In this document: positions 3,240 through 10,754 of the stretch, in pieces
Layout of the letters: each line of letters starts with the position of its first letter
Position numbering within the stretch: the stretch's first letter is position 1
Assembly (NCBI RefSeq): GCF_937890665.1
Contig: NZ_CALADU010000015.1
Coordinates: 1 to 11,071, forward strand
Length of the DNA stretch: 11,071 bases
Origin: an uncultured Subdoligranulum sp.
GTDB lineage: Bacteria > Bacillota_A > Clostridia > Oscillospirales > Ruminococcaceae
Direction: 5' to 3'
Made by a program: the position numbers and the translations under genes
Notes under the pieces: generated by a model
What the model was told of the DNA's origin: nothing
Database searches by the model: none
What the model saw: the letters and a program-made list of their open reading frames with translations, nothing else

Positions 3240-3275
3240 AAATCCCGGCAGATACGTTTGTATCCGCCGGGATTT
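3240..3275. terminator. Bidirectional intrinsic terminator between convergent genes
   Basis: AAATCCCGGC (3240-3249) pairs with GCCGGGATTT (3266-3275), extended inward by GATAC/GTATC with one mismatch and a 4-nt loop. On the plus strand it runs into TTTATTTTAT after mscS. On the minus strand it is followed by TTTTTTAG after the lipoprotein gene. It can therefore end both convergent transcripts. Confidence 0.92.
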
Positions 3276-3292: not shown

Positions 3293-3784
3293 CTAAGACC
3301 AGCTGCTCTCGCTTTCCAAACCGGGGCGCTGGCAAGTAACGATCATAGAATCCGTGCCGTCCTGCGTAGTAATCACAAAGTCAAAGGTATAAACCGTATC
3401 CAATCGATATTGAAGACCGCCGTCCTCCAACTCCGTCAGCACATAATCCAAATCCGGCTGCGGCATCATCTTGTCGTAGTATAAGTACAGATAGGAGATA
3501 TTCTCTACAAATCGGAGCTCCACTTGATCTTCTGTCACACCATACAGCGTGATTACCGGGACCCCCTGCGTGTTCAAAGCGTCCCGGTTGACCACCTGAT
3601 CGGAGTTTTCTCGGCTTTCTGCATAATCCACATGGTATGTATTAAGTAAGATACAGTTGCTCAGCTGCATCTCAACCCCGGTATTCGGCAGTGTTTCTTG
3701 CCACACCGGCGTGGTATCGATTTTTTGTGAGGCGCAACCGGTCAGCAACAGAAGCACCGGCAAAAAATAGCACCATTTCTTCAT
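3293..3784 (-). CDS. Small predicted lipoprotein of unknown function, last gene of the thiol-ligase operon
   Basis: I do not recognise a family. The 163-residue product starts MKKW, followed by a hydrophobic stretch and a lipobox LLTGC with the acylated cysteine at residue 17. It is therefore expected to be exported and anchored to the outer face of the cytoplasmic membrane. The mature part is beta-rich and acidic, with no obvious catalytic motif. An in-frame ATG at 3799 overlaps the stop of the DinB gene as ATGA. ATG 3784 is preferred because GAGGAG lies 7 bases upstream and it gives a clean signal peptide. It is the fourth gene of the operon, 11 bases after the DinB-like stop, and ends at the bidirectional terminator. 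Its link to the ligases is positional only. Confidence 0.8.
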   Translation of the reverse strand: MKKWCYFLPVLLLLTGCASQKIDTTPVWQETLPNTGVEMQLSNCILLNTYHVDYAESRENSDQVVNRDALNTQGVPVITLYGVTEDQVELRFVENISYLYLYYDKMMPQPDLDYVLTELEDGGLQYRLDTVYTFDFVITTQDGTDSMIVTCQRPGLESESSWS

Positions 3785-3795
3785 GTCTGTTCTCC

Positions 3796-4362
3796 TCATT
3801 GATAAGGGTCATAGGGCGGCCGCGGAAACTTGTCCCCCGGTTGTAAGGTACGCGGACATAAGCCGATCTCTGCCACAATAAAACCCATCAGCATCCCCAG
3901 ATGGAGGTGCAGATGACGATACTGGGACAGAATCAGCGTAAAGCGGGTCCATTCGCAATTTTCTGGCCGCTGCAACAGATCTTCATCGTGCAAAGAGGTC
4001 AAATACAAGGACAGCTTCGCCTTGATGGTGTAAAAATAGTCATCCATCTGACTGCGGTTGAGATGTGCCGCCGGATAGATGTCTAACTCATGCAATTCCG
4101 GTACATGCACCGGCGGTTCCACAAAGTCATTGGCTTTGGGGTTGATAAACCACTGGTCCAGACTGTGCAGCATATGATACAGATGCTGCCACAAAGGTGA
4201 ACCGCCATAGTGCTTATCCCATAATTCGTCCGGAATGCAATCCATCACATTTTGGGTTTCCCAAAGAGCACGGACCGTCATCTCGGTAATTACTGCATGA
4301 TACGATGTTTCCCGCACGCGGTCCGCCCCCTTTTCTTTTGGGGATAGTATGCGTGCCGGCAT
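3796..4362 (-). CDS. DinB-superfamily protein, possible metal-dependent thiol transferase
   Basis: The DinB superfamily is a four-helix-bundle fold that usually binds a metal through three histidines. Characterised members include bacillithiol, mycothiol and glutathione S-transferases and the DinB domain of EgtB. The 188-residue frame shows a helix with WQHLYHMLHSLDQW (residues 58-71; His60, 63, 66) and a later helix with QYRHLHLHLGMLMG (147-160; His150, 152, 154). This is the family layout of one histidine cluster in helix 2 and another near the C-terminus. The start is uncertain. ATG 4362 lies 6 bases after the preceding stop but has no Shine-Dalgarno, so would rely on coupling. GTG 4317 has AGGGGGCGG 5 bases upstream and would give 173 residues. 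Position behind a glutamate-cysteine ligase and an ATP-grasp ligase suggests it acts on or with the thiol they make; that is inference. Confidence 0.8.
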   Translation of the reverse strand: MPARILSPKEKGADRVRETSYHAVITEMTVRALWETQNVMDCIPDELWDKHYGGSPLWQHLYHMLHSLDQWFINPKANDFVEPPVHVPELHELDIYPAAHLNRSQMDDYFYTIKAKLSLYLTSLHDEDLLQRPENCEWTRFTLILSQYRHLHLHLGMLMGFIVAEIGLCPRTLQPGDKFPRPPYDPYQ

Positions 4363-4368
4363 CTGGGA

Positions 4369-5703
4369 TTATTCGGTTACCAGCAAAGTAGGCAATGTTT
4401 TTTCGCTGTATTGGCTGGAAATGATGGGACTGAGCGACACACGGGAATAGATGCCCTGCGCCATCCCGTCGTAGACATAGACCCCCGTCAGGTTATAGTA
4501 TCGGTTTTTCCCAAAGGCTCCCTGTAATCCTATACCATAGTTTTCCGTTACATAGGGAAAATAAAATTCCTGCAACAGATACCCTTGCCTGGGTGTATTT
4601 TGCACAATCTGTTCCCACTCTTCCTGTGTGCACTCCACACCCGCATGGACCCCACGGGAAGCGTACGAGTCCAACGGCTTTAGGATCCAACCATCTTTGT
4701 TAGCCAAAATGCGGGGCACGTCGCTTTCCTCAAGAGCTTTGGTCAATGGCACATGCGCCTCCACAAAAGCCCGCTCCTCCGCCGTCAGCATCTGCTGGGT
4801 CAGCGGCTCATGCAAAACGCGGAAAATGGTCTTGTTGTGTACCAGTTGGGTATGAAAATCCCCTACCAGAAGCACCGCATCCTCCCGCACAGCTGCCAAC
4901 AGTGCACCGCATTCATTATACCGCTCTAAAATGTCACTGGTAACAGCCCGTCGATAAATCGCATCGATCTTATGTCCTCCGGGACCGTATAAGACTTTCT
5001 CATCGGCGTCGTAGCGAAGGTCTCGCACATCACAGATTTCCGCCGGGACGTCATTCCGAATAAAATAGCCCTGAAAAACTTCAAATTCATTGACGCTGGC
5101 GCAGTCCATAAAATCCACAATAGCCACATACGGCTTTTGCTCCGTATGACGCGCACGGGCATACACCGCACACAACGTTTTGACCCAACTTTCAAACAAT
5201 TCGCAGGTCCGTGTTGCGTGCGTGTCACAGAATTGCCGGTAAACAGTGGAAAGGCGCTGTGCCAAATTGAGTTCCCGGTCCTCGTTCATCGCACTGGTTC
5301 CATCGGTGTTAAACTCACAATATTTATAGGCACCAGTCTCCTCGTTATAGAAAAAATCGATCCGCGCCATCGGCAGCAAAGAAATATCCGGGTTAGCTCG
5401 CAAAATCAATTCTTCCGTTACGGCATCAAAACCAAACAAAGCGCGGTATGCCGGGTCCCGGTAATAGGCGTGCATCACTTTTCCGAGAATACCATAGAGC
5501 GTCTGAATATCCGCTTCAAACTGCGCAAAAATCTTTTCGGTAAACAATTTGGGTTGATAGCAGGTCCGCACATATTCACCATGGTGGATGGCTGTGGACG
5601 CTTTCATATATTCGGTTATCTCATCAAATTCGCGCTGCAGACGAGCCGGGTCCGATGCAGCCGCTTCGAGATACGCCTGATTCAGTTGCTGTAATTCAGT
5701 CAT
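4369..5703 (-). CDS. ATP-grasp-type ligase, glutathionylspermidine-synthase-like, partner of glutamate-cysteine ligase
   Basis: This is probably an ATP-dependent carboxylate-amine ligase extending a gamma-glutamyl product. The 444-residue protein has RIDFFYNEETGAYKYCEFNT (114-133) followed by DGTSAMNEDREL, resembling the acidic substrate/metal region of glutathionylspermidine-synthase-type or circularly permuted ATP-grasp proteins. HNKTIFRVLHE is at 289-299. A nucleotide-binding lysine segment WILKPLDSYASRGVHAG is at 339-355, and the strand YLLQEF at 375-380. A C-terminal block GVYVYDGMAQGIYSRVS at 407-423 matches the 'hydrophobic-V-x-G-x-A-x-G-x-x-x-R-x-S' end of that group. It is not a GshB or GshF by eye. 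ATG 5703 is chosen over ATG 5742. It overlaps the upstream stop by only 8 bases, with GGAAGAAG upstream, which suggests translational coupling. The ATP-grasp assignment is moderately sure; the substrate is unknown. Confidence 0.75.
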   Translation of the reverse strand: MTELQQLNQAYLEAAASDPARLQREFDEITEYMKASTAIHHGEYVRTCYQPKLFTEKIFAQFEADIQTLYGILGKVMHAYYRDPAYRALFGFDAVTEELILRANPDISLLPMARIDFFYNEETGAYKYCEFNTDGTSAMNEDRELNLAQRLSTVYRQFCDTHATRTCELFESWVKTLCAVYARARHTEQKPYVAIVDFMDCASVNEFEVFQGYFIRNDVPAEICDVRDLRYDADEKVLYGPGGHKIDAIYRRAVTSDILERYNECGALLAAVREDAVLLVGDFHTQLVHNKTIFRVLHEPLTQQMLTAEERAFVEAHVPLTKALEESDVPRILANKDGWILKPLDSYASRGVHAGVECTQEEWEQIVQNTPRQGYLLQEFYFPYVTENYGIGLQGAFGKNRYYNLTGVYVYDGMAQGIYSRVSLSPIISSQYSEKTLPTLLVTE

Positions 5704-6928
5704 TTTCGGATTCTTCTTCCCGTATGGTTTTTTTGGTGGCAATCAGCTTTGCAAACGGCTCCAATAGGGCTCGTTCTTCTTGGGAAGGCGTGCGGCTTCT
5801 GGCTTGCAACAACAGCCACGCCAGCTCCTTACCGATGGGTTTTCCGTACACCCATGCATTATACCCATCTTTGCATACGGCCACCTTTGCATTGGCAATA
5901 TCGCCCGTTGTGGCGCCGTCATAATGGCGCAGAATATTTTGCAGCGCCGCCTGACTGCCGAAGATCGTTTTCACTAGCTGCGCATAGGCTGCAATATATT
6001 TGGGCGGCATACAATCGGCCCCGCGAATTTCCAGATAGCTTTTTAGGCGTGCATCAAAGAAAAACATAGACAGTACATGTTCCACTTCTTTTTTCAAGAG
6101 ATGGCTGCCGTAAATTTCCTGTGCATTCTTACGCCCCACGGCCTTGGTACGGTTCCCTTTCAGTGCCACAATCAAAGGCCGCGTAAGCACGGTCTGCGCA
6201 TACTGTGCAAACCCAAAGTCCGGGTCCATCAGGTGGGGCGGCACACCGCATCGGTCCAAATCAACATCCTGCCAAATCCGTGTCCGTACACTATAAGCAT
6301 TGTTTCGATTGCCTTGGTACCGCACCGCATTGTCGCTCAACAACGCAAAGAAAGGGGTCAACAGGCAAGCCACCCTCATTTTTTGTACAAAGTCTCGTTC
6401 ACTATAATAGTCAACAGACAGTTGTGTAGATGCCGTAGCCCGCATCATTTGAATACCGCAAGCACCAGTATTTTTGAAATAGCGATCCATCGCTTCATAG
6501 CGCTGCTTGGGAATCAAGGGCAGTTCTTCCGCCCGCCGGGTCGGGTGATAACTAACCGTCCACGCCCGCAATCCGCGCGCTGCCAGTGTCATACTCAACT
6601 GGAGGTAGAACTGGTTGTAAATATCCATAATTTTGAGCACAGTAGCCTGCGGGACCACACTGATCTCCACCTGACAGGCCGGTTCCAGCGAGACACTGTA
6701 CCACTCTGTTACATATCCCATGTATTCCCCATCAATCAAGATGGGGGTATCATAGGGCTGCTGCATCTGCTGCATCACGCTTTGCACTTCAGCAAAGGTG
6801 ACCGCCTCGCCTCCTGCATGGGTAACAAAGTGTTCTACTTCCAACCCCAGCGTCAATTTTCCTTCGCTTTTGCACCCCTGCTGAAAGTACTCGACTAAGA
6901 CCTTCTTCTGTTCATCCAATTTCGACAT
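5696..6928 (-). CDS. Glutamate-cysteine ligase, plant/alphaproteobacterial (GCS2) type
   Basis: This enzyme is predicted to make gamma-glutamylcysteine from glutamate, cysteine and ATP in the cytosol. The 410-residue protein carries the GCS2 landmarks in order. GLEVEH (28-33) is the metal/glutamate site. LEPACQVEIS (81-90) corresponds to the 'E-P-x-x-Q-x-E-L-S' strand. MMRATASTQLSVDYYSERD (161-179) resembles the plant 'QVNLDxSSExD' segment. RTRIWQDVDLDRCGV (215-229) and DFGFAQY (237-243) follow, then YLEIRGADCMPP (298-309), matching the plant 'RYLEMRGADGGP' motif. ATG 6928 follows AGGAG 9 bases upstream; a longer frame to 7015 crosses the promoter and is rejected. It is the first gene of a four-gene operon. 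The plant-type form as a stand-alone gene is notable, because Firmicutes with glutathione usually carry fused GshF. An EgtA-like role is the main alternative. Confidence 0.88.
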   Translation of the reverse strand: MSKLDEQKKVLVEYFQQGCKSEGKLTLGLEVEHFVTHAGGEAVTFAEVQSVMQQMQQPYDTPILIDGEYMGYVTEWYSVSLEPACQVEISVVPQATVLKIMDIYNQFYLQLSMTLAARGLRAWTVSYHPTRRAEELPLIPKQRYEAMDRYFKNTGACGIQMMRATASTQLSVDYYSERDFVQKMRVACLLTPFFALLSDNAVRYQGNRNNAYSVRTRIWQDVDLDRCGVPPHLMDPDFGFAQYAQTVLTRPLIVALKGNRTKAVGRKNAQEIYGSHLLKKEVEHVLSMFFFDARLKSYLEIRGADCMPPKYIAAYAQLVKTIFGSQAALQNILRHYDGATTGDIANAKVAVCKDGYNAWVYGKPIGKELAWLLLQARSRTPSQEERALLEPFAKLIATKKTIREEESEND

Positions 6929-6974
6929 AGATGATACTCCTGCCGGTTTAACATTCTTATTTTTCAGTTTCCCT

Positions 6975-7003
6975 ATTATACCCCGAAACCCTTTTTTAGG
7001 CAA
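6975..7003 (-). promoter_or_regulatory. Promoter of the glutamate-cysteine ligase operon
   Basis: On the minus strand, TTGCCT (-35, 7003-6998), a 17-bp spacer and a perfect TATAAT (-10, 6980-6975) give a start near 6968 and a 40-base leader. No riboswitch or clear operator is visible in the leader. All four genes down to 3293 can be read from it, with no internal terminator seen. Confidence 0.8.
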
Positions 7004-7010
7004 CGGGAAA

Positions 7011-7044
7011 CACAAAAGTTCCCAACCTATTACGGCGGGAACTT
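7011..7044 (-). terminator. Probable terminator after the P1 peptidase gene
   Basis: On the minus strand AAGTTCCC (7044-7037) pairs with GGGAACTT (7023-7016) around a 13-base loop and is followed by a short TTTTGTG tract. The stem begins 7 bases after the peptidase stop. The long loop and short T-run make it a moderate rather than strong terminator. Confidence 0.6.
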
Positions 7045-7051
7045 CTTCGTG

Positions 7052-8014
7052 TTATAACTCTGACGCCGCAGGGAATCCATAGGCACTCTTGGCCGCTTGC
7101 ACAGCACGCACAATCGCCTGCGCCATCACCTGTGCACCCAACGCACCGACAACATCTTGGTCGGCGGACACTTCCCCCAGCGATACCGCATAAATGCTAT
7201 CCCCGTCCGCCGTAGTATGTACCGGGCGAATCGCCCGGGCATATCCATCGTGGGCCATACCTGCTATTTTACACAACTTTGTTTTATCAAACCGTGCGTT
7301 GGTCAGGATCACACCCAACGTGGTATTGCCCACGAATTTATTCTCTACCACCTCGGTTTTCTGCAAAGCCACCTGCTCGGCGTCTAAAAACGTTTTATGG
7401 TCTTCTGCCAACAGTCCAGCAACCTTCTGACCATTTTTCCAATCGTAAATGTCACCCAGCGCGTTGACTGCCACAAGTGCCCCCACTTGAAGATCGCCTA
7501 CCTGTACCGCATAACTGCCGATTCCGGACTTCATGCAATGCTCCATGCCCAACAGTTTTCCCACCGTAGCGCCGGTTCCTGCACCATAGTTTCCATCTTG
7601 GTAGTTTCCCTTTTCTGCATTCTGACAAGCTGCATACGCCATGGCCGCATCCGGCCGCACCTGCGCACTGGCTACCGTCAGATCAAACAGGCAGGACTGA
7701 CACACCAATGGCACCTTCGTTACGCCCACGTCAAAACCGATGTTTCGCTCTTCCAGATACCGCATCACTCCGCCAGCAGCATCCAGTCCGAAAGCGCTGC
7801 CGCCTGATAGCAAGATGGCATGAATTGAGCTTGCCGCCGCCATCGGCTTCAACAGCTCACTTTCCCGCGAAGCCGGCCCGCCGCCGCGAACATCCAGCCC
7901 CGCCGGGGCCCCGTCTTTTCCAAATAGCAGCACCGTGCACCCTGTACCCGCAATTTCATCTTGTGCCTGCCCAATCTGTACATGGGGCAACTCCGTAATG
8001 GCAATCTCTTTCAT
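7052..8014 (-). CDS. P1-family (S58, DmpA/NylC-like) aminopeptidase
   Basis: Members of this family are self-cleaving N-terminal-nucleophile hydrolases (L-aminopeptidase DmpA, beta-peptidyl aminopeptidases, nylon oligomer hydrolase NylC). The 320-residue protein has the family landmarks: DVRGGGPASRESELL (41-55), HAILLSGGSAFGLDAAGGV (65-83), GAGTGATVGK (144-153) and KFVGNTTLGVILTNA (226-240). By analogy with NylC, autocleavage is expected between Asn230 and Thr231, making a roughly 230-residue alpha chain and a 90-residue beta chain with Thr231 as nucleophile. ATG 8014 is chosen because AAAGGAGAG precedes it at good distance; an ATG at 8041 has none. It starts 29 bases after the ogt stop with no terminator between them, so the two genes are probably co-transcribed. 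No signal peptide is seen, so it is likely cytosolic. The physiological substrate is unknown. Confidence 0.9.
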   Translation of the reverse strand: MKEIAITELPHVQIGQAQDEIAGTGCTVLLFGKDGAPAGLDVRGGGPASRESELLKPMAAASSIHAILLSGGSAFGLDAAGGVMRYLEERNIGFDVGVTKVPLVCQSCLFDLTVASAQVRPDAAMAYAACQNAEKGNYQDGNYGAGTGATVGKLLGMEHCMKSGIGSYAVQVGDLQVGALVAVNALGDIYDWKNGQKVAGLLAEDHKTFLDAEQVALQKTEVVENKFVGNTTLGVILTNARFDKTKLCKIAGMAHDGYARAIRPVHTTADGDSIYAVSLGEVSADQDVVGALGAQVMAQAIVRAVQAAKSAYGFPAASEL

Positions 8015-8043
8015 GGTATACTCTCCTTTGGCGTAAAGCATTT

Positions 8044-8607
8044 TTACTTCTCATCGTTTTCCTGCAACGCCCCCGGTCCTGTACGAGGTTTGGGATCGTA
8101 TAAATTTCGGACATCCACCCCTTCGTATTTCAAGAGGCGACGTTTCAAAGCAACCCCACCGTTATAGCCAACAAGGCTGCCGTCCCTTCCTACCACACGG
8201 TGGCACGGAATGATTAAAGAGATAGGATTATGTCCTACCGCACCGCCAACCGCCTGAGCCGACATGTTTTTCCCTTTTTCCTGTGCCATTTCCCGGGCAA
8301 TATCGCCGTAAGTCACCAAAGTGCCGTAGGGAATGTAGCATAGCCGCTCCCACACCTGTTTCCGGAAATCACTTCCCGGTGGATCCAGCCGAATTTCTTG
8401 CGGGGTAGGCCTTTTACCGCAGAAATAGCGATCCAACCAGTCGCATCCCTCTACCAACAGCGGCGCTCGATCATGGCAAGCCGCTTGTGCAAGCAGGCCC
8501 TCTTCCACGGTCTGTCCCGGCAGACAGAGGCGAATCAGTGCATCATCATTGGCCATCAAGAGAATATCCCCCAGCGGAGAATTATATTTTGTGTAATACA
8601 GTGACAA
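8044..8607 (-). CDS. ogt: Methylated-DNA--protein-cysteine S-methyltransferase
   Basis: This suicide DNA-repair enzyme transfers the alkyl group from O6-alkylguanine in DNA to its own cysteine. The protein is 187 residues, normal for Ogt/MGMT. The active-site segment IIPCHRVVGRDGSLVGYNGG (residues 132-151) holds PCHR with acceptor Cys135. The DNA-binding helix-turn-helix region FRKQVWERLCYIPYGTLVTY (81-100), with YGDIA after it, precedes this as usual. The start is probably TTG 8607-8605, preceded by AAGGGGGA about 7 bases upstream and giving the typical N-terminus (M)SLYYTKYNSPLG. The ATG at 8700 would add 31 unrelated residues across AT-rich intergenic sequence. A weak promoter may lie in that stretch (TTGATT 8669-8664 with an AT-rich -10 region near 8640), but I cannot define it well. 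The gene sits 107 bases after the MFS stop and 29 before the peptidase start. Confidence 0.95.
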   Translation of the reverse strand: MSLYYTKYNSPLGDILLMANDDALIRLCLPGQTVEEGLLAQAACHDRAPLLVEGCDWLDRYFCGKRPTPQEIRLDPPGSDFRKQVWERLCYIPYGTLVTYGDIAREMAQEKGKNMSAQAVGGAVGHNPISLIIPCHRVVGRDGSLVGYNGGVALKRRLLKYEGVDVRNLYDPKPRTGPGALQENDEK

Positions 8608-8714
8608 GGCAGTTCCCCCTTTTCCCCCGATTCTTATAGTATATTCTACATTGTAACAGATAGAATCAAAGGATTCCAGTATTCCTACCCAACTGTGCAA
8701 ACTTTTACACGCCT

Positions 8715-9947
8715 TTAGAATCTAGACAACTGTTTGAATAAATTTCGGGAGGAATAAGCCGCAAATAGCACCAAAAGCCCTGTTATACCCAGAACAGCCG
8801 CTGGTGAGCAAAAATCAAACGCAATTCCATACAGCACCTGCCCTAAAGGCTGCACACAGAGCGCCAGCGTCATAACAAACGCCATAACTTTGCCGGTCAA
8901 ACCTTCCGGCGTTCTCTGCTGAATGGCACAGAGCCCCACCACAGAAAACATGCTGCAAGTGGCCTGCCCCACGCATAAACCTGCGAGTAAAACGGCATAA
9001 CATAGCGCTGGCGATAAAACCAACGCAAAAGCCGCTGCTGCCGGCAGTAAGCCCACACCAAAAAGCGCCCACAACCAGTGCTGTTTTCGCAAGGGGATCT
9101 TATCTCCCCAGATTCCGATGAAAAGGCTCCCCATCACGGCTGCCGTCCCCAGCACACTTTCTGCCGCACCATACCACGCGGTCGGCAGTCGCAGAACCGT
9201 GCGAACCAAAAATGGAAGTCCTACTGATACAATCCCTGACGCAAAGAAATTTGTGGCAGCCGCCAGCAATAGAAGCTGGAGTACCATCGGTTCTTCCCGG
9301 CTCAAAAAGTGTATACTTTGTTTGAGGTCCCCACACAAGATTTTGCCCAGCGATTCTTGGGTGGCGTTTGCTGGGGACGGTAATACCAAAAACAGTTCCA
9401 ACAGCGCCGTGCAGAAAAAGCATCCACAGACCAGCATCAGCACAGGCTGAATTCCCAGCAAAGTATAGGCGATACTCCCAGTAAAAGGTGTAACCATCGC
9501 GGCAAGGGCCTGCACTTGATTGGCAACGCTATTGGCTCGCATTAAGTTTTCCCCACGATGCATCTGCGGCACACAGGCCTGAACTGTCGGAGATTCAAAA
9601 GCACCAAATATTCCCAAAATAATTTGTAATATTGTGATGAGTGTCAAATGGTTTGCCGCGCCCCATAATAGCCATACTATCCCAACCGAAATCCCCGATA
9701 AAGTATCCAGCGCTATCATAATCGTTCTCCGATTAATCCGGTCCGCCAGCACACCTCCCACCGGAGAAAGCAATATAACCGGCACTGTGGATGCCGCCAA
9801 AATTGCTGCGAACCGACTTGCCGAACCGGTTTGTTCCAGCACATACATAGAAAGAGCAAATTTTAGAGTGTAGTTCCCCAATAACGAAAAAATTTGCCCC
9901 CACACCAAGAGCGTAAAATTGCGGGTAAAAAGTCGCTTTGCGTGCAT
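8715..9947 (-). CDS. MFS efflux transporter, TetR-controlled
   Basis: This is a proton-driven major facilitator, most like the small-molecule or macrolide exporter branch. The 410-residue protein shows about 12 hydrophobic segments in two halves. Motif A is in the loop between segments 2 and 3, as GGVLADRINRRT (residues 64-75; Asp69, Arg70, Arg73-Arg74). A central basic loop (about 186-215) divides the halves, and the second half repeats a weaker motif A at GIWGDKIPLRKQ. ATG 9947 is preceded by a perfect AGGAGG 7-8 bases upstream. The gene follows tetR on the same strand, separated by a terminator, its own -10 box and two operator-like repeats. Expression is therefore probably induced when the regulator binds a drug or other ligand. 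The exported substrate cannot be read from the sequence. Confidence 0.92.
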   Translation of the reverse strand: MHAKRLFTRNFTLLVWGQIFSLLGNYTLKFALSMYVLEQTGSASRFAAILAASTVPVILLSPVGGVLADRINRRTIMIALDTLSGISVGIVWLLWGAANHLTLITILQIILGIFGAFESPTVQACVPQMHRGENLMRANSVANQVQALAAMVTPFTGSIAYTLLGIQPVLMLVCGCFFCTALLELFLVLPSPANATQESLGKILCGDLKQSIHFLSREEPMVLQLLLLAAATNFFASGIVSVGLPFLVRTVLRLPTAWYGAAESVLGTAAVMGSLFIGIWGDKIPLRKQHWLWALFGVGLLPAAAAFALVLSPALCYAVLLAGLCVGQATCSMFSVVGLCAIQQRTPEGLTGKVMAFVMTLALCVQPLGQVLYGIAFDFCSPAAVLGITGLLVLFAAYSSRNLFKQLSRF

Positions 9948-9968
9948 TTTGTTATCCTCCTATGACTG

Positions 9969-9999
9969 ATTATATCAACCAATACATACCAACGGTATG
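9969..9999 (-). promoter_or_regulatory. MFS pump promoter with extended -10 and overlapping operator
   Basis: On the minus strand TGATATAAT gives an extended -10 (TATAAT at 9974-9969). The -35 position, near 9997-9992, has no consensus hexamer and lies inside the palindromic operator at 9983-9999. A start near 9962 leaves a leader of only about 15 bases, just containing the AGGAGG site. Binding of the regulator to the palindrome should block polymerase. Confidence 0.7.
9983..9999. promoter_or_regulatory. Operator-like palindrome A in front of the MFS gene
   Basis: ACATACC AAC GGTATGT is a perfect 7-bp inverted repeat around 3 bases. Symmetry extends to 10-bp arms over 9981-10003. The size and symmetry suit a TetR-type dimer. 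The GGTATGT half recurs at 10055-10061 and 10781-10787. Confidence 0.8.
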
Positions 10000-10044
10000 T
10001 ATTCAAGCAAAAAGAACACCGCAGCCGCGGCAGTTTCATCATAT

Positions 10045-10061
10045 AGATACTTTTGGTATGT
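10045..10061. promoter_or_regulatory. Operator-like site B between tetR and the MFS gene
   Basis: AGATACT TTT GGTATGT has the same 7-3-7 layout as sites A and C. The right half is identical and the left half degenerate (matches ACATACC at A, A, T, A, C). It lies 10 bases downstream of the tetR terminator stem and 46 bases upstream of site A, which would allow cooperative binding or a roadblock. Confidence 0.55.
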
Positions 10062-10070
10062 ATCATCACA

Positions 10071-10096
10071 AAATAAAATTGCCCGAAGGCAATTTT
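10071..10096 (-). terminator. tetR terminator with UUCG loop, overlapping the stop codon
   Basis: On the minus strand AAAATTGCC (10096-10088), loop TTCG and GGCAATTTT (10083-10075), followed by ATTTTG. The C(UUCG)G loop is an exceptionally stable tetraloop. The stem includes the last two bases of the tetR stop codon (10095-10097), so termination occurs right at the gene end. Confidence 0.85.
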
Positions 10097-10754
10097 ATGT
10101 ATTTTTTTGTTGCTCTTGTTCGATTTCCTCAAAATACGGTTTCAGTTCCTGCAGCATGGCCTCATCTACCAGCGGCAGCCCCATATTGTCCAGCAGTTCC
10201 CCAATAAATCGAAACTTGCGCAGCATCTGCTCGGCGGATGCCGGGTATACAGCGGGTACCATCCACAACCCCGTCAGCAAAATCATGACTTCCGCCAATT
10301 CCTGCGGATATTCGGTATGAATGGAGCCATCTTGTATCCCCTCCTCAATGAATTTTCTCAGATAAGGAACAAGTGTTTTTTGATTCTCTTTGATCATTTC
10401 GGCCAGAAAACGAGGATTTTCCAAGATCGGCATGCTTTGTACCGTGATAGCCATCCGCTCCTCATCTCTTTGGTTCAGCCGGATGGATTCTCGGATTTTT
10501 TCCAGCCCGTTCAAATCACTTCGTTTTGCTGCCGCGGCAAAGGGATTGCTGCGCAAAAACATGCGGTCACTTACTGCATCAATAATTTCTTCTTTCGACT
10601 TAAAGTGGTGGTATACAGCCCCCTTCGTCAAATCCCCCAAAGCATCTACAATATCTTGAATGGTGGTTTGCTCGAACCCCTTCTCTAAAAAGAGACGTTC
10701 TGCCACTTCCAGAATTCGTTCCTCGGTAATCTCTGGATATTTATTACGCGCCAT
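10095..10754 (-). CDS. TetR/AcrR-family transcriptional regulator of the adjacent MFS pump
   Basis: This is a cytosolic ligand-responsive DNA-binding dimer, usually a repressor. The 219-residue protein has the N-terminal TetR helix-turn-helix at about residues 10-56: EERILEVAERLFLEKGFEQT (11-30), TTIQDIVDALGDLTKGAVYHHF, and SKEEIIDAV. It includes the near-universal 'KGA-x-YHHF' recognition-helix end. The remaining 150 or so residues form the divergent helical ligand and dimer domain, with no recognisable ligand signature. ATG 10754 follows GAAGGTGG with short spacing. The gene has its own consensus promoter with an operator-like site over the start point, and sites A and B lie before the downstream pump gene. 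Autoregulation plus control of the pump is the natural reading. Repression, rather than activation, is inferred from operator position. Confidence 0.95.
   Translation of the reverse strand: MARNKYPEITEERILEVAERLFLEKGFEQTTIQDIVDALGDLTKGAVYHHFKSKEEIIDAVSDRMFLRSNPFAAAAKRSDLNGLEKIRESIRLNQRDEERMAITVQSMPILENPRFLAEMIKENQKTLVPYLRKFIEEGIQDGSIHTEYPQELAEVMILLTGLWMVPAVYPASAEQMLRKFRFIGELLDNMGLPLVDEAMLQELKPYFEEIEQEQQKNT

Follow-up and report, generated by a model that had tools for sequence, protein, structure and literature searches.

A GCS2-family ligase and a circularly permuted ATP-grasp-type ligase as a probable glutathione-type thiol pathway in gut clostridia

Background

Coupling of a gamma-glutamylcysteine ligase to an ATP-grasp ligase is known from GshF (GshAB), in which a PF04262-type GshA and an ATP-grasp domain share one chain. 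We describe the same coupling built from other halves, a glutamate-cysteine ligase of the GCS2 family and a ligase with the fold of eukaryotic glutathione synthetase (GSS) and glutathionylspermidine synthetase (GspS), mostly encoded as separate neighbours and in some relatives fused. The locus lies in a stretch of 11,071 nucleotides from an uncultured Subdoligranulum sp. (contig NZ_CALADU010000015.1; the whole stretch is 'the window' below) of the Gemmiger clade of gut clostridia, where the two halves are two genes. We call the second, a circularly permuted ATP-grasp-type ligase, CPG.

The closest described proteins each differ from those of the window. Plant-type glutamate-cysteine ligase (GCL; TIGR01436) and EgtA (TIGR03444) share membership of the GCS2 family with the window ligase, which scores well under both equivalog cut-offs. 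Eukaryotic glutathione and homoglutathione synthetases (GSS, hGSS) have a fold like that of CPG, but identity is 10-16%, and CPG is bacterial and matches no GSS Pfam family. E. coli Gss has an amidase domain that CPG lacks, and Gss and the YgiC/YjfC peptide-spermidine ligases differ further in that CPG is linked to gamma-glutamylcysteine ligases and would not act on ready glutathione. The fungal Cp1B of the E-64 pathway is a GSS-fold ligase with an R/D/E/N core like that of CPG; until it was tested it had no Pfam domain and was likewise annotated as hypothetical. It differs in that it ligates epoxysuccinate and amino acids to pseudodipeptides (PMC12568646).

Genomes that lack gshB and gshF are, in our view, easily taken as unable to make glutathione, and with CPG there is now a specific candidate for the second step of glutathione-type synthesis that they miss. 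Comparative genomics and a structure model suggest that the GCS2-CPG operon probably makes a glutathione-type thiol, with CPG joining gamma-glutamylcysteine most likely to glycine. Most likely, then, the chemistry is known, the second enzyme is newly recognised, and the fusion architecture is apparently new within the open-licence literature, in whose titles and abstract beginnings we recognised neither that architecture nor any pairing of a GCS2 ligase with a CPG-type second enzyme.

Results

Two neighbouring ligases form a conserved unit

Four minus-strand genes lie between 3240 and 7003, encoding in order GCS2, CPG, a DinB-fold protein and a lipoprotein-like protein. The sequence confirms this arrangement and the overlap of the ligase genes, both described in an earlier note on this DNA. 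The features of the pair are:

5696..6928, minus strand: GCS2-family glutamate-cysteine ligase, 410 residues (PF04107, TIGR01436, plant GCL structures)
4369..5703, minus strand: CPG, circularly permuted ATP-grasp-type ligase, 444 residues, candidate for the second step
5696..5703, minus strand: 8-base overlap of both ligase genes (from the sequence)

Contigs of GTDB genomes were scanned with a CPG alignment, and the best 80 of 235 confirmed matches were taken as CPG loci. GCS2 adjoins CPG on the same strand in 45 of them, and in 8 more (L049, L051, L052, L055, L056, L060, L065, L072) the two form a single frame of 832-891 residues, so that GCS2 is beside CPG or fused with it at 53 of the 80 loci. 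Overlaps or short gaps between the two genes recur in relatives of the window. The fused form is common: one fusion gave 226 matches, and of the best 120 almost every one is 770-901 residues long and contains PF04107; the five names given are 'glutamate--cysteine ligase' (twice), 'glutamate-cysteine ligase family protein' (once) and 'hypothetical protein' (twice). The 8 fusions sit in two places on a CPG tree, where a single origin is not rejected (approximately unbiased (AU) test, p 0.154), and we therefore do not claim several origins.

A class sample of 291 genomes was drawn around the centre genome G007. Strong CPG matches occur in 20 of these (the centre included) and strong GCS2 matches in 28, and all 20 CPG genomes have GCS2; weak matches to CPG in G114, G117 and G214 (E 4e-15 to 5e-5) and to GCS2 in G172 and G282 lie outside these counts. 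For 19 of the 20 genomes the pair is on one contig, either fused or with the matching segments no more than 113 bases apart; in the remaining genome it is split over two contigs. The hypergeometric probability of this co-occurrence, calculated as though the genomes were unrelated, is 8e-25 (8e-24 without the centre genome).

The first enzyme is exchanged for GshA and CPG stays

The other 27 of the 80 CPG loci have no adjacent GCS2, although the contig stops near the upstream side of CPG in L022 and just upstream of it in L025. Host-wide checks were made on relatives' genomes, 46 of the 80 with CPG loci: 26 of the 27 without adjacent GCS2 (L025 being the exception), together with 20 of the 53 that have it, G007 belonging to this set as well as to the class sample. 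GCS2 was found in exactly the latter 20 genomes, as a single copy each; all of the remaining 26, and none of the 20, have PF04262 GshA. A gamma-glutamylcysteine ligase is present in every CPG genome checked, the 46 here and the 20 of the class sample.

Rows without adjacent GCS2 do not form one clade on the CPG tree (AU p 2e-5); 7 changes in GCS2 presence are needed, at least five of them forced by well-supported branches. Two ligase families therefore came and went while CPG stayed. The case for gamma-glutamylcysteine as the substrate of CPG, which we consider very probable from the comparative genomics and the structure model combined, rests above all on this exchange. The first two genes are a conserved pathway unit; adjacency or fusion in the scanned loci, complete co-occurrence in the class sample and the GshA exchange in the 46 genomes together uphold the earlier note's proposal that both ligases belong to one pathway.

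A recurring partner that might replace GCS2 beside stand-alone CPG was also sought, and the neighbours scanned are mixed: a galactanase upstream (L015), DUF308, MatE, HD-domain and TetR genes downstream (L023/L024), and an esterase (L029). About 10 related loci of Lachnospiraceae share the DUF308-MatE-TetR group. Separately, a gene of about 100 residues, one cluster of six loci, stands directly upstream of stand-alone CPG (L042, L045, L046, L066; GshA genomes), its L045 copy belonging to the antibiotic-biosynthesis-monooxygenase (ABM) family. At L092:207-3421, the genes for GshA and a Mur-ligase-like protein (PF08245/PF02875) overlap, with a HAD hydrolase gene after GshA.

Family and fold of the two ligases

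The window ligase scores 100.7 bits against PF04107 (cut-off 21) and so belongs to the GCS2 family, and a Pfam scan gives no PF04262 match. Its closest solved structures are plant GCL (2gwc/6gmo, E 6e-39). Against the plant-type model TIGR01436 it reaches 180.8 bits, under the equivalog cut-off of 463, and against the EgtA model TIGR03444 89.9 bits, under 371. Because of the TIGR01436 result we file it as a member of the GCS2 family only.

The predicted structure of CPG (pLDDT, the predicted local distance difference test score, 92) matches eukaryotic glutathione synthetase, glutathionylspermidine synthetase and YgiC, including the glutathione synthetase entries with bound gamma-glutamylcysteine 3kak, 5oes and 1m0w; in the model, then, CPG has the GSS fold. 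The match spans only residues 206-618 of Gss, and Pfam finds no amidase domain in the 444 residues. At the level of sequence, PF14403 (CP_ATPgrasp_2) gives the window CPG 22.8 bits, under its cut-off of 32, and matches 35 of the 38 members over which family profiles were read at E 0.01. Because this match is weak, the ATP-grasp assignment, already made in the earlier note and in agreement with the predicted structure, rests on the structure model.

Models of GshB and eukaryotic GSS place CPG outside those two families. The window CPG has no PF02955 or TIGR01380 (GshB) match at E 0.1, PF02955 matches one of the 38 members (E 0.006), and the NCBIfam glutathione synthetase subfamily model NF009110 gives the window protein 11.8 of 408 bits and matches 7 of the 38 at E 0.01 or less (best 3e-5). 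GSS Pfam families match none of the 38 at E 0.01 and are absent among the eight Pfam families that do; glutathionylspermidine synthetase (PF03738) matches 13, the window protein not among them. A sequence search against the PDB returned chance matches only, and a profile search reached Cp1B and trypanothione synthetase at E 0.016-0.02. An hhalign comparison with E. coli Gss, with a probability of 2.7%, was used solely for the RxD...ExNxD motif; an R-x-D...E-x-N core is common to CPG, GspS and YgiC, in agreement with a pattern check. In Cp1B, alanine changes at the residues matching this core abolish or attenuate activity (PMC12568646). Where the sources searched name CPG at all, it is 'hypothetical' or named after the first half only.

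A probable route to glutathione

In the proposed pathway the GCS2 ligase would first join L-glutamate and L-cysteine with ATP to give gamma-glutamylcysteine, an activity its family suggests. CPG would then phosphorylate the cysteine carboxylate of gamma-glutamylcysteine and join to it an amino compound, most likely glycine, to yield glutathione, as comparative genomics and the fold lead us to propose. We lean towards glycine as the acceptor. Glutathione is the likeliest product because glycine is universal, the fold is that of glutathione synthetase and the coupling is the same as in GshF. CPG would thus be a glutathione synthetase outside the GshB, GshF and eukaryotic GSS Pfam families, though with the eukaryotic fold. 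The earlier suggestion of a thiol that need not be glutathione agrees with a fold family in which some members use amino acids and others polyamines as acceptors, but we now take glutathione as the default.

Of the other thiol routes named in the earlier note, those through GshB, BshC and GshF find little place among the 46 CPG genomes. PF02955 exceeds its cut-off in 9 of them, all GshA genomes. In the three scanned, these proteins score 136.8-209.8 bits as RimK (TIGR00768, cut-off 143.4; one just under) and 50-55 bits as GshB (TIGR01380, cut-off 299); in the other six they were judged by PF02955 score alone (34-47 bits). Being far better as RimK where scanned, the PF02955 matches were set aside as RimK family, which leaves no convincing GshB in the 46 genomes. 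BshC is found in 0 of 46. GshF was judged only through the lengths of PF04262 frames: in the 26 GshA genomes these reach at most 495 residues, the NCBIfam GshF models being 719 and 756 long, and therefore no frame in the 46 genomes is GshF-sized.

Some observations weigh against a stricter form of this proposal. Within the class sample, 8 of the 28 GCS2 genomes have no strong CPG, nor does any of the 19 PF04262 genomes (G114 and G214 with weak CPG matches are among these; G320 falls under the PF04262 cut-off and outside the count), 7 of which have GshF-sized frames of 765-790 residues. The dependence is one-way: CPG goes with a ligase, and the ligase does without CPG. At four of the eight GCS2-only loci (L103-L106) a gene of 252-257 residues overlaps the ligase gene; the L103 and L104 copies, which were scanned, are class-II amidohydrolases of the GATase_4 type, the latter EgtC-like at 52 bits (cut-off 219). 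A GATase_4 gene near GshA or GCS2 perhaps encodes an EgtC- or Dug3-like gamma-glutamyl hydrolase. With such genes beside GCS2-only ligases, gamma-glutamylcysteine may also be used in other ways.

In one CPG genome, too, a GATase_4 gene comes after GshA (L091:2708-3475). Stand-alone GshA, in frames of 383-447 residues and with no GCS2 or CPG match in the genome, occurs in G047, G131, G243, G301, G308 and G325 of the class sample.

If the proposed pathway is true, the thiol content of many gut commensals needs to be predicted again, and a further bifunctional architecture for glutathione-type synthesis stands beside GshF; an acceptor other than glycine would mean a new low-molecular-weight thiol.

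Other acceptors, substrates and users

The main alternative is an amine conjugate, since polyamine ligases belong to this fold family too. CPG would then join gamma-glutamylcysteine to spermidine or another polyamine, giving a gamma-glutamylcysteinyl-amine in place of glutathionylspermidine or trypanothione. We consider this unlikely: CPG has no attached GspS-like amidase domain, glycine is present in every cell, and a strong spermidine synthase match (at least 140 bits) occurs in 19 of the 46 CPG genomes: GCS2 genomes account for 15 (of 20), GshA genomes for only 4 (of 26). Counting weaker matches, most of them in frames of 530-650 residues, spermidine synthase exceeds the Pfam cut-off in 30 of the 46. 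By this distribution a spermidine conjugate is possible for the window's clade and poor as a universal explanation. A broader version can be held tentatively, as possible though not probable: many gut Clostridia might make a non-glutathione thiol in which CPG caps gamma-glutamylcysteine with a polyamine or some other amino compound. Such a thiol would be the bacterial equivalent of glutathionylspermidine or trypanothione, shorter by one residue and made by a two-gene or fused GCS2-CPG enzyme.

In the earlier note's full scheme, which is compatible with the other readings, the two ligases would make a dedicated thiol and the DinB protein would be an S-transferase that uses it. The last two genes are:

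3796..4317, minus strand: DinB_2-fold protein, 173 residues, probable GTG start (PF12867, homologue length)
3293..3784, minus strand: small lipoprotein-like protein of no known family, start most likely at 3784

The DinB protein, scanned as a longer frame of 188 residues, scores 27.5 bits against PF12867 (cut-off 24.8) and belongs to this family, with H48, H51, H135 and H139 at least 90% conserved in 34 sequences; we take these histidines to be the usual DinB metal site. Its model (pLDDT 94) matches DinB/YfiT structures weakly (best E 3e-3); mycothiol S-transferase and BstA are among the better of these matches (E 9e-3 and 2e-2), none of which reaches 1e-3. The fold, the histidines and the presence of the gene in 18 of the 80 loci favour the scheme, as do 3 of the 10 class-sample genomes that have DinB without CPG and do have a gamma-glutamylcysteine ligase (G181 and G188 GCS2, G131 PF04262). 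GCS2 and PF04262 are both missing from the other 7, and only G007 of the 11 DinB genomes among the 291 has CPG as well. DinB occurs in 11 of the 46 CPG genomes, all of the Gemmiger clade, and not in those of L006 and L015; the closest class-sample copy outside the clade, in G289, is in a genome without a CPG, GCS2 or PF04262 match, and the best such copy overall (L112) lies between beta-lactamase-family and methyltransferase genes. The gene probably also starts further from CPG than the 6 bases given in the earlier note: most listed full-length homologues are 173 residues long, so the start is probably GTG 4317, not 4362, and the gap is then 51 bases. The gene is a Gemmiger-clade accessory, and these distributions do not support its protein as a dedicated thiol user. 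The protein may use the operon's product but more likely does not; the full scheme we regard as quite unlikely.

The lipoprotein gene, like DinB, occurs in 18 of the 80 loci, both confined to L001-L020; its LLLTGC is presumably a lipobox, and PHROGs gave no match for either gene.

That CPG ligates another peptide or protein tail and not free gamma-glutamylcysteine, its link with the ligases reflecting a shared stress regulon or metabolic niche, is very unlikely: the loci without adjacent GCS2 speak for it, and to our knowledge many circularly permuted ATP-grasp relatives have no known substrate, but if no intermediate were shared it would be difficult to account for eight fusions and for GshA in 26 of 26 searched genomes that have no GCS2.

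Signals and neighbouring genes

The two signals that bound the operon are:

6975..7003, minus strand: promoter-like site TTGCCT-17-TATAAT, 10 of 12 positions matching
3240..3275, minus strand: intrinsic terminator hairpin of 16 bp followed by a U run

The terminator, as the earlier note had it, is well supported (-27.4 kcal/mol, z -7.7; 0 of 200 shuffles equally stable). The promoter proposed there is plausible from its sequence, although the 10 such sites in the 4.8-kb region are not clearly above chance (6.2 +/- 2.7 in shuffles). A further stable minus-strand hairpin at 7005-7056 (-21.7 kcal/mol, z -5.1), which separates the operon from the S58 peptidase gene, possibly terminates that upstream gene.

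The closest named relatives are metagenome-assembled genomes of the Gemmiger clade. In L001, where CPG is 84% and the ligase 90% identical, the full order TetR-MFS-OGT-S58-GCS2-CPG-DinB-lipoprotein is retained. The upstream genes of the window (7052-10754, minus strand) accordingly encode, in the same order, TetR, a major facilitator superfamily (MFS) exporter, an O6-methylguanine-DNA methyltransferase (OGT) and an S58 peptidase. S58 occurs in 5 of the 80 loci, the methyltransferase in 2, and MFS and TetR in 1 each, with contig ends cutting some loci.

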